Shown here one piece after another: positions 33,056 through 36,701 of a stretch of 64,000 nucleotides of DNA. The notes beneath the pieces are model-generated. The model was not told the DNA's origin. It saw nothing but the letters and a program-made list of their open reading frames with translations, and ran no database searches. Within the stretch, counting starts at the first letter, position 1; the number at the start of each line of letters is the position of its first letter. This stretch comes from Fimbriimonas ginsengisoli Gsoil 348 (GTDB lineage: Bacteria; Armatimonadota; Fimbriimonadia; Fimbriimonadales; Fimbriimonadaceae). Both the position numbers and the translations under genes were made by a program. Location of the stretch: NCBI GenBank assembly GCA_945881865.1, contig CAMCVK010000008.1, forward strand, positions 62,001 to 126,000, in the 5' to 3' direction.

Positions 33056-33595
33056 TTAAGAAGACGCTGTCTTTGGCGAGCGACCAAGCATGAAATAGTA
33101 GACGATCGCGCCAGCAAGCAGTCCGCAGAAGACTCCACCGATCACATCCGACGGCCAGTGAACGCCACGATAGATTCGACTTACTCCGACGCACGCGGCC
33201 GCGACGGCGAGCAGCCACCCCCACTTTACGTTTTTGGTCCCCCACGTCATCAAAATCACGATGGTCGCAACGCCAAAGGACGTCGCCGTATGCCCGCTCG
33301 GGAAGCTGGAAAACATGAACGCCTCCTCGCGGATCGTGAATTGCATGTGGCTCGGCCGCTCGCGTGGAACCGTGGCCTTGAGACCCTGCGCCAGCGGCAA
33401 ACCGGCAATCGCCACCGAGGCGATGATCGGCCACGTGAAGCTCTTTGTTTTTAAAACGAAGTGCGAGAGCACCGTCAGCGCCACCTGCACGTAACCCAAG
33501 CCGACCGAACTCCAAAACAAAAAGAAGAGATCGCCGAAGGCAGAGCGGCTGCCGACGTTGATCAGGCGAAAGACCTCTAGGTCGAACGGATACAC
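33056..33595 (-). CDS. PAP2-family membrane phosphatase
   Basis: 179 residues and about five or six membrane segments. The three-part active site is intact: KATVPRERPS, PSGHT and SRIYRGVHWPSDVIGG. Members remove phosphate from lipids such as undecaprenyl diphosphate or phosphatidate on the outer face of the inner membrane. It starts with GTG 33595, five bases after the anti-sigma stop, so its expression is tied to the ECF sigma unit; envelope-stress control of lipid carrier recycling is a reasonable guess. Confidence 0.88.
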   Translation of the reverse strand: MYPFDLEVFRLINVGSRSAFGDLFFLFWSSVGLGYVQVALTVLSHFVLKTKSFTWPIIASVAIAGLPLAQGLKATVPRERPSHMQFTIREEAFMFSSFPSGHTATSFGVATIVILMTWGTKNVKWGWLLAVAAACVGVSRIYRGVHWPSDVIGGVFCGLLAGAIVYYFMLGRSPKTASS

Positions 33596-33600
33596 CGGGG

Positions 33601-34890
33601 TTACTGGCCCCCGCCGTTGTTGGCTCTGTTACCCGGCGCTGGGCTACTTTGCGCGGGGGCTGCGCCCTGAAGAATCACGGTGATCAGCCGTTTTGAGTTA
33701 GCTGCCGAGCGACGCTGGGCGGCTTCGAGCGCCTTCTGAACCGATTCGATCTCCGCATCGACTTCCTTCACCGGTTTCGCATCCGCGTAAAACTGCTCCA
33801 GAAGGATGCCCCGCTGCTTCTGGAGTGCATCCAGTCTGGCGGAGAGGCTCCGAGCGTCGTTCCCGACGGTGGACGATGCGTCGGCAGCAATGTTCTGGTT
33901 GCCGGCCGCTTTTCTTGCAGCGCTTTCTTGTGCGGTTGCGGGGGCTGAGCCCGCCCCGCCAAATCCTCCGGCGCCTCCGCCGAGTGCGGTACCTGCCTGG
34001 GTGGGAGGTGTACTCGACCTAAGGGCCACTTTCGCGGCCGGATCGTCCGTCACTGGCTTCACCGTTCCGGAAGGTCCAACAAGATTCCGCAGACGCTGCA
34101 GGAGGGCTTCGGACATCTCCGGGTCGGCAGAGATCGTGAGCGTCTTGGTTTTCACTCCCCCGTTCGATAGTTCGGCGGACGCCATCACGGTCGCGCCCGC
34201 TTCCTTCACCGCCACACGCACGGCTTTCTCCTGAGCGGCAACGTCCCCGGTGACGGCTGGGCCAACGGGCCCGGCCATCGGCTCAAGGTCGAAGTTCATC
34301 GGCGGAACCGTGCCGGCGGAAGCCGTACCCGGGAGCGGTGAAACCGTTACCGGCGGAACTGATATCGGCCCGCCCGGACCGGCGCCGGCTCTCGAATCTG
34401 CTGTCACAGGGGGCGACGTCGTTGGCGCTTCCGGCGGCCCGCTGTATGTTTGTGCGGCGGTTGATTTCGACTTCACTATCGGCAGAGGCTCAGCGGCAGA
34501 CTCCACTGCCATTTTTGCGGCGTCGCTCACAGCGGCAACAGCGCTCTTTGAGCCTTCCATGGCAACGAAGTCATTTTTATTGAAGTAGGCCGGCACGAAT
34601 ACGACCGCCGTGATGGCCGCCGCAAGGCAAACCCGCACCGTCCAAACCCGAAAATTGTTCCAAAAACTCACCTTCGGCGAGTCGGTCGCCAACGCAATGA
34701 GCGTCTGCTCCATTCCCAAAACTTGGGCTCGCTTTACCTCGGTGTTCAGCACGGAGGACAGACTTCGAAGCTGGGACACTTCGGTGCGCAACTCCTCGCT
34801 TTTGGCGAGAGCGTCGTCGATCTCATGCATTCTCGCCGGCGATAACTCGCCGTCTAGGTACGCCTTTAGGTCCTCGCGCAGATCGTTTAT
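33601..34890 (-). CDS. Transmembrane anti-sigma factor with DUF4349-like outer part
   Basis: Reading from ATA 34890 gives 429 residues; the first ATG in frame is 34830. The 20 residues in between (NDLREDLKAYLDGELSP and on) are the typical start of cytoplasmic anti-sigma domains, so translation probably begins at this ATA or at CTG 34881. ATA overlaps the sigma stop as ATAA, and GGAAGGAG lies at 34901-34908, ten bases upstream. One membrane segment (about 82-103) separates the sigma-binding part from a Pro/Gly-rich outer region. A beta domain (VRVAVKEAGATVMAS) and a coiled coil (SLSARLDALQKQRGIL) follow, as in DUF4349 proteins. Confidence 0.8.
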   Translation of the reverse strand: MNDLREDLKAYLDGELSPARMHEIDDALAKSEELRTEVSQLRSLSSVLNTEVKRAQVLGMEQTLIALATDSPKVSFWNNFRVWTVRVCLAAAITAVVFVPAYFNKNDFVAMEGSKSAVAAVSDAAKMAVESAAEPLPIVKSKSTAAQTYSGPPEAPTTSPPVTADSRAGAGPGGPISVPPVTVSPLPGTASAGTVPPMNFDLEPMAGPVGPAVTGDVAAQEKAVRVAVKEAGATVMASAELSNGGVKTKTLTISADPEMSEALLQRLRNLVGPSGTVKPVTDDPAAKVALRSSTPPTQAGTALGGGAGGFGGAGSAPATAQESAARKAAGNQNIAADASSTVGNDARSLSARLDALQKQRGILLEQFYADAKPVKEVDAEIESVQKALEAAQRRSAANSKRLITVILQGAAPAQSSPAPGNRANNGGGQ

Positions 34891-35402
34891 AGGGCCACTT
34901 CTCCTTCCAGGAGGCTTTCGGCTCCGAGTTCGCGCCGAAGATGCAGAAAAGCATGGTGCAAACGAGACTTCACCGTTCCAGAAGGAATGCCCAAAATCAC
35001 GGCCGCTTCATCGTAGGTTAAGCCCTCGATTTCTCGTAGCATAACGACTTCACGGTGCTCAGCGCTCAGCTTCCCAATCGCCGTTTGGAGAAGCTGCCGG
35101 TCGATCCATCCCGAGTCGGGCGCTGGCACGGCCGGTTCCTCAGAGATTTCCAGCGACACCGCCCCAATCCGGCGCTGTCGCACCGTGCGTCGGCACTCGT
35201 TAAAGGCAATTCCAAATAGCCAAGTCTGCAATTTTGATTCTCTTCGATACTTCGGAAGGGCTTTCTGCGCGGTGAGAAACGTATCTTGCGCCACGTCGGC
35301 CGCCCACTCGACGCCAACTCGCCGAACACAAAATCGGTAAACCGACTCGTAGTGGGTTCGGGCGATGTGGGCCATGGTGAGTTCCTCGGCTTCCCCGTCC
35401 AT
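34887..35402 (-). CDS. ECF RNA polymerase sigma factor
   Basis: 171 residues from ATG 35402; the frame continues to 35567, but the extra residues do not look like a sigma factor. Region 2 runs from HIARTHYESVYRFC to LPKYRRESKLQTWLFGIAFNECRR, and region 4 has LSAEHREVVMLREIEGLTYDEAAVILGIPSGTVKSRLHHA in separate helices of the helix-turn-helix. The downstream gene is its membrane-bound anti-sigma factor, overlapping by four bases, and PAP2 follows; the set should respond to an envelope signal. Confidence 0.92.
   Translation of the reverse strand: MDGEAEELTMAHIARTHYESVYRFCVRRVGVEWAADVAQDTFLTAQKALPKYRRESKLQTWLFGIAFNECRRTVRQRRIGAVSLEISEEPAVPAPDSGWIDRQLLQTAIGKLSAEHREVVMLREIEGLTYDEAAVILGIPSGTVKSRLHHAFLHLRRELGAESLLEGEVAL
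34901..34908 (-). promoter_or_regulatory. Shine-Dalgarno GGAAGGAG inside sigma gene end
   Basis: Lies ten bases before ATA 34890 and well away from the first ATG (34830), so it supports initiation in the ATAA overlap rather than at the ATG. Confidence 0.55.
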
Positions 35403-35479
35403 CCGATTGTCAGAAGATAAGTGCACGGCGGTGACGTAAACGTTCAACGGCTGAACGAAGTTACGAAGACAATTATGAG

Positions 35480-36355
35480 TTAGCGAAGCCCCAGCGCAAC
35501 CAGCAGATCGGAATCTGGGCTCCAATCCTTGATGAATCGGCCTTTCGTCCCAACATCCACCGTCCACGGAATGCTAAAGCCAACCATGGCCTCCCGCACC
35601 GCCCGGACGTAGGCGAGCCGCGCCGTACGGTTCGCGCCGAGGTCGCCGGAGAACCCAAGGCAGACCACCGGTACCCGGTTCCGCTTCCGCCAAGCATCCA
35701 CTTGCGCCACCTGAAGACGAATTTTCTCCGCGTCCCAACGTTCCCGCCCGTACTGAACGATCTCCAGTTTTTCGGCATCCGTCGCGTCCGGGAGGAGGCC
35801 GGCGACGAGCTTTGGTGAGGAAGGAAACGGCAGCTTGCTGAATACCGATTTTTCTTCTACCGGCGCGGTGAGGCGTTCCGGCGAGGCGAACCGAAAACCG
35901 TGCACCAAGTTGGCTTCTCCTCTCGGTCGGCTGTCTTGGGTCGGCAAAGACCCGTCTGCGAGGCCAACGATGAATGTGTGGGTCGGCAGTTCCATCCGGG
36001 CATCGGCGAGGAGCCGCCAGAACTCAGCCATCTTTTCTGGATCCGTGGGGCAATTGAATTCTGGAAAAACCCAATCCGGGTTGCTGCCTCGCAGCACGCT
36101 CGCCTCTTCCGGCTCGAGCCGAAAACGAACGGAAAGTTGCCGCTGGCGAAATCTCTCAAGCAGTTTGGTGAGCTCGCCGGCCTCGCCAGACAAACCCACG
36201 CTCTTGAATCCGCTCTTTTGAATCGAATCCAGCAAGGCATCTTCCGAGTTCAGCGTGACGGCCGGGGACGAAAGGGCCAAATTCATCCGATCAAGGCGGG
36301 CGGGCGGGACGCGGGACTGCGCTAGGACCCAACCGATTGCGACCAATGCCAGCAC
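35480..36355 (-). CDS. Exported protein, possibly GH5/cellulase-like
   Basis: 291 residues from GTG 36355. A short signal peptide or anchor (MLALVAIGWVLAQ) precedes an alpha/beta pattern. The last 70 residues (VPVVCLGFSGDL, then a Tyr-rich helix and FSIPWTVDV, ending SPDSDLLVALGL) resemble the end of GH5 cellulase barrels, where an enzyme would have a catalytic Glu in the 'GEFG' strand. Here that strand reads LGFSGD, so the nucleophile seems to be missing and activity is doubtful. TAACCT lies six bases before the start. Confidence 0.55.
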   Translation of the reverse strand: MLALVAIGWVLAQSRVPPARLDRMNLALSSPAVTLNSEDALLDSIQKSGFKSVGLSGEAGELTKLLERFRQRQLSVRFRLEPEEASVLRGSNPDWVFPEFNCPTDPEKMAEFWRLLADARMELPTHTFIVGLADGSLPTQDSRPRGEANLVHGFRFASPERLTAPVEEKSVFSKLPFPSSPKLVAGLLPDATDAEKLEIVQYGRERWDAEKIRLQVAQVDAWRKRNRVPVVCLGFSGDLGANRTARLAYVRAVREAMVGFSIPWTVDVGTKGRFIKDWSPDSDLLVALGLR

Positions 36356-36398: not shown

Positions 36399-36701
36399 AT
36401 GGATGCAGCACCCACCGATTGGCTTGCGGCCGGTGGGGCATTCACGATGATCTTCATCCAGACTATCGTGTGCGCAGCGGTCGGCGCGTTTGCCGCGTTC
36501 CGAGTGGGTGCTGCCACAAACGCCGAAGCCGATGGCTGCCTGCTCGCGATTACCAATATCATCTTAGCAATTGTCGGAGCCGGGATCGGCTACTTCGTCG
36601 CGCCGTATCCGATGTTCGTTTTTACCGCGATGCTTGGCTCGGCGGCCCTTCCGAGCATCGCCACCGCCATCTTGGCGAAGCGTATGCGAAAGGGCCGTTA
36701 G
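36399..36701 (+). CDS. Small membrane protein of unknown function
   Basis: 100 residues with three hydrophobic stretches (about 12-35, 45-65, 68-90) and a basic tail AKRMRKGR. No family recognised. The gene is divergent from the GH5-like gene (43 bases between starts) and ends seven bases before the metY stop on the other strand. Confidence 0.6.
   Translation: MDAAPTDWLAAGGAFTMIFIQTIVCAAVGAFAAFRVGAATNAEADGCLLAITNIILAIVGAGIGYFVAPYPMFVFTAMLGSAALPSIATAILAKRMRKGR

Follow-up and report, generated by a model that had tools for sequence, protein, structure and literature searches.

A candidate AUA start codon at a sigma/anti-sigma gene overlap in a member of the Fimbriimonadaceae

The window, by which we mean the whole 64,000-nucleotide stretch of DNA that was analysed, carries a gene for an ECF sigma factor on the minus strand and, overlapping its 3′ end, a second gene whose start codon is the subject of this report. 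The features of the locus are as follows.

36399-36701, plus strand: divergent gene for a small membrane protein of roughly 100 residues, judged hydrophobic by eye; a syntenic neighbour.
34887-35402, minus strand: gene for the ECF sigma factor, starting at ATG 35402 (or ATG 35375), with a weak Shine-Dalgarno (SD) sequence of its own.
34901-34913, minus strand: predicted hairpin CUCCU-GGA-AGGAG, which could mask the SD of the second gene unless translation of sigma opens it up.
34901-34906, minus strand: SD sequence AAGGAG, 10 nt before ATA (aligned spacing 9).
34888-34890, minus strand: ATA, the proposed anti-sigma start, at the site of ATG or GTG in orthologs and the only start-site codon at a usable SD distance.
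34887-34889, minus strand: TAA stop of the sigma gene, overlapping ATA as ATAA where orthologs have ATGA or GTGA.
34879-34881, minus strand: CTG, an alternative non-canonical start at codon 4, without an SD at usable spacing; some homologs have their sole NTG here.
34828-34830, minus strand: ATG, the first canonical start, at codon 21 and without an SD; starting here would delete helix 1 and the beginning of helix 2.
33601-34890, minus strand: putative anti-sigma gene, 429 codons from ATA, with an N-terminal anti-sigma helical domain, a predicted transmembrane (TM) helix and a long C-terminal part.
33056-33595, minus strand: PAP2-like phosphatase gene, named by eye from sequence motifs; a syntenic downstream neighbour.

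The best explanation for the gene at 33601-34890 is that it encodes the anti-sigma partner of the ECF sigma factor directly upstream, with which it is co-operonic through a four-nucleotide overlap. Gene order in the genus is sigma, anti-sigma and PAP2-like phosphatase, plus the divergent gene for the small membrane protein. The phosphatase gene adjoins the sigma/anti-sigma pair in nine of 10 same-genus loci and the membrane protein gene does so in seven of 10, and because this order is kept, these loci are considered true orthologs. Scores against known families are low, with 20.2 bits for zf-HC2 (cut-off 22.2) and 21.7 for PRK13920 (cut-off 225). The ten best fold matches of the anti-sigma structure model comprise RsiW, RslA and a chain of a SigK complex, all of them weak (E >= 0.3), and the N-terminal profile had no convincing sequence match in the PDB. 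The pair resembles those of RsiW and RslA in its operon order and in an N-terminal anti-sigma helical fold (at weak E values) followed by a TM-like helix, whereas the sequences have diverged too far to be matched with confidence in the PDB.

The region from 33500 to 35700 yielded no sigma-70-type promoter. The sigma SD is weak both in the window (34887-35402) and in most relatives (L169-L178), and the anti-sigma SD is strong. This combination suggests that the anti-sigma factor is made in excess over sigma in the family.

Read on the minus strand, the sigma gene ends with GAG GTG GCC CTA TAA, and the anti-sigma frame lies at -1 relative to it. The anti-sigma frame is open from a TGA at 35010 to its own stop at 33601. 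The initial annotation had claimed that a canonical start is missing ahead of ATG 34830, that ATA 34890 overlaps the sigma stop in ATAA, and that a short motif lies ten bases upstream of it. A codon-by-codon reading from 35010 to 34830 bears out each of these observations. ATG, GTG and TTG are absent from all codons from 35007 to 34833, the first canonical NTG of the frame is codon 21 counted from ATA, the sigma stop occupies 34889-34887, and AAGGAG spans 34906-34901 with 10 nt between it and ATA.

Judging from its pattern of substitution, the stretch before ATG 34830 is coding. Across 62 homologs, codons 6-16 have a pN/pS of 0.09 in frame versus 0.89 and 3.59 in the shifted frames, a signal that stems mostly from family history rather than from the window itself. 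Codons 21-40, which lie past ATG 34830, are far less conserved (pN/pS 0.73), and the upstream stretch is the most conserved protein-coding part. The window retains the family consensus residues at codons 6-16, and its N-terminus therefore shows no visible decay. The structure model has a mean pLDDT of 70 and places helix 1 at residues 4-13 and helix 2 at residues 18-30, such that a protein beginning at Met 21 would be predicted to lack the former and the start of the latter.

To place the ATA in context, genomes of the genus, family and order as well as GTDB contigs were scanned with a profile built from the N-terminal domain. Once duplicates had been removed, 79 distinct homologous starts were left (Fimbriimonadaceae and other Armatimonadota, window included). 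The initial annotation had proposed looking for ATG in relatives, and 78 of the 79 indeed have a canonical start between codons -3 and +5 relative to the ATA site (66 ATG and 12 GTG), many of them exactly there. The window is the sole member without ATG or GTG near the site. A four-nucleotide overlap with a long upstream sigma frame is present in 68 cases, as ATGA in 56, GTGA in 11 and ATAA in one, the window. ATA occupies the start site in none of the 78 other homologs, and so this codon is not conserved in relatives. Elsewhere in the same genome, six clear overlaps between a sigma gene and its downstream gene have the form ATGA (four), TTGA (one) or GTGA (one). The missing NTG start at the anti-sigma ATA site is an outlier among the homologs, to a degree that exceeds chance.

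Some same-genus loci (L155, L156, L160, L161, L163 and L165) have a sigma/anti-sigma pair without the four-nucleotide overlap. In these six loci, the anti-sigma ATG is located four codons later and follows a GGAGGT-type SD.

A single wrong base in the consensus or assembly, or a mixed population merged into one base, would leave the true genome with ATGA like its orthologs. The sequence departs from the family consensus by exactly one base, at the critical place, and shares this departure with no relative. Moreover, the base is known from one assembly of 3.23 Mb in 26 contigs, which shows the same letter but is the window's own source and hence no independent check, no further sequence of the species turned up, and a scan for close relatives found none, the homologs having at most about 45% identity over the domain. 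However, substitution errors in assemblies are rare, neither the neighbouring genes nor the 429-codon frame is broken, and the change preserves the sigma stop. We consider an error of this kind unlikely, while still according it appreciable weight.

If the base is taken as given, AUA initiation is the best-supported reading of the anti-sigma start. ATA has an SD score of 15 at an aligned spacing of 9, and no SD is found within 3-14 nt of CTG 34881 or in range of ATG 34830. The canonical starts of the homologs mostly have an SD spacing of 6-7, with a few at 9. The ATA is also predicted to be unpaired (0.98) and is unusually open, ranking 77 of 79 among the homologs. The hairpin that includes the SD was considered as a special feature and rejected, as it is no stronger than in shuffled sequences (z 0.12) and its masking is about the median of the homologs.

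Initiation at either AUA or CUG had originally been suggested. The AUA half of this proposal is strengthened by the ATGA slot in orthologs, the SD, the conserved N-terminus and the apparent AUA start of infC described below, and the CUG half is poorly supported for lack of an SD at usable spacing. Some homologs (L125 and others) have their sole NTG at codon 4, which indicates that a protein made from there can function. However, AUA suits both the SD and the overlap slot, and we judge initiation at CUG 34881 to be very unlikely. Slippage by -1 near the sigma stop, producing a sigma-anti-sigma fusion, would match the -1 offset and the overlap of the two frames. This is extremely improbable, however, given that no slippery heptamer is apparent by eye in GTG GCC CTA TAA and that the homologs are separate genes, each with its own NTG start.

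A survey of this genome for AUA starts covered infC and the sigma-linked genes. The infC gene codes for IF3 and is positioned as follows.

G000:C1, around 224447-224650, minus strand: infC of this genome (L168 / L227; relatives L179-L228).

No NTG precedes the conserved NERVLRFRDIRV region of this gene, whose start region reads GAGGTGA ACAAAC ATA GCA GGC TTT AGA AGA, with ATA at a spacing of 9. Across 50 family infC genes, from this genome and 49 relatives, the codon at the start site is ATA in 40, ATC in seven and ATT in three (AUH in 50/50), and NTG is wholly absent before the IF3 domain in 35. An aligned SD spacing of 9, equal to that of the anti-sigma ATA, is the commonest among these AUH starts (37/50), and the anti-sigma SD differs from the extended type seen at infC. 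The family infC gene appears to start at AUA, AUC or AUU after a GAGGTGA-type SD. Because infC has no usable NTG and mostly carries ATA in the family, the lineage appears to initiate at AUA. The infC survey is a more solid result than the anti-sigma AUA start.

These data bear on a further explanation, in which the start codon was truly and recently lost, the anti-sigma factor is negligible or truncated from ATG 34830, and sigma is unrestrained in this strain. Such a loss would be in keeping with an ATA common to no relative, and the excess of anti-sigma seen for SigR/RsrA (PMC5472188) would be disturbed by a weak start. However, neither the first 20 codons nor the 429-codon frame shows decay, and some initiation is to be expected where infC of the same genome apparently uses AUA. 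We therefore regard loss of the start as decidedly unlikely. Jointly, a one-base error and a strain-specific mutation account for about one third of the probability as we assess it.

Non-canonical starts of infC include AUU in E. coli, AUC in Streptomyces and AUA in S. aureus (PMC5472188, PMC13009471). Like these genes, including the S. aureus example with AUA, the anti-sigma gene would have a non-canonical AUH start behind an SD, and infC of its own genome also has AUA. The infC starts are conserved throughout the family and have their role in IF3 autoregulation, whereas the anti-sigma ATA occurs in one species only. Non-canonical starts in S. aureus give about 10% of AUG expression, and the AUA of ccpN gives up to 30% in rich medium (PMC13009471). 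The anti-sigma gene would resemble ccpN as a regulator gene with an AUA start, whose output in that case is about 10-30% of AUG. However, the ccpN AUA is conserved to B. subtilis, has an extended SD and was ribosome-profiled (PMC13009471), whereas the anti-sigma AUA is predicted from sequence.

Streptomyces sigR has a GTC start that is repressed by IF3, and its anti-sigma factor must exceed sigma because the regulon otherwise becomes constitutive (PMC5472188). Both systems place a non-canonical start inside a sigma/anti-sigma operon with a four-nucleotide gene overlap. However, sigma has the weak start in Streptomyces and its anti-sigma factor has ATG and is in excess, whereas the weak start here belongs to the anti-sigma gene. 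In a narrow literature search, no account of an ECF anti-sigma gene with a non-canonical start came up. The anti-sigma gene is a probable further gene with a near-cognate start codon, which is a known class.

On balance, we lean towards a history in which a recent change from ATGA to ATAA left a working but weak, and probably IF3-sensitive, AUA start. The ancestral anti-sigma gene would have carried ATG within the usual four-nucleotide ATGA overlap, and a single G to A change would have exchanged one sigma stop for another (TGA to TAA) while turning the start into AUA. Ribosomes finishing sigma would reach or unfold the AAGGAG site, initiator tRNA would then begin anti-sigma at AUA with reduced efficiency, and IF3 would set the level of this initiation by lowering it. 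Gene overlaps of the ATGA type are commonly translation-coupled (PMC6728339), and the AUA start is most likely aided by the SD together with coupling to sigma translation. We infer that initiator tRNA decodes AUA at reduced efficiency, that IF3 represses this event and that the base is correct. Counting against the AUA start are the reliance on a single assembly and the lack of ATA in every homolog, in contrast to infC and ccpN, whose AUA starts are conserved.

The initial annotation had also proposed that a weak start would keep the anti-sigma level below that of sigma. This idea is unsupported, since the sigR precedent needs an excess of anti-sigma factor (PMC5472188), and by this analogy a weaker anti-sigma start would run counter to the usual excess. 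Because such an excess is expected, both from sigR and from the SD strengths, the AUA may be tolerated rather than selected. It is conceivable, if doubtful, that AUA places the anti-sigma gene under IF3 in the manner of infC, so that a fall in the IF3/ribosome ratio would yield more anti-sigma factor and turn the sigma regulon off. If true, IF3 control of the anti-sigma factor would mirror the arrangement at Streptomyces sigR, in which sigma is what IF3 holds down.

Gene callers restricted to ATG, GTG and TTG would set the anti-sigma start at 34830 and lose helix 1, leaving databases with a wrong version of the protein. For infC, which a whole Armatimonadota family appears to start at AUA, AUC or AUU, NTG-limited gene callers would miss the N-terminus. 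If AUA is used by the anti-sigma gene, this locus would represent a further sigma/anti-sigma switch with a near-cognate start, after Streptomyces sigR, and its own dependence on IF3 is directly testable.
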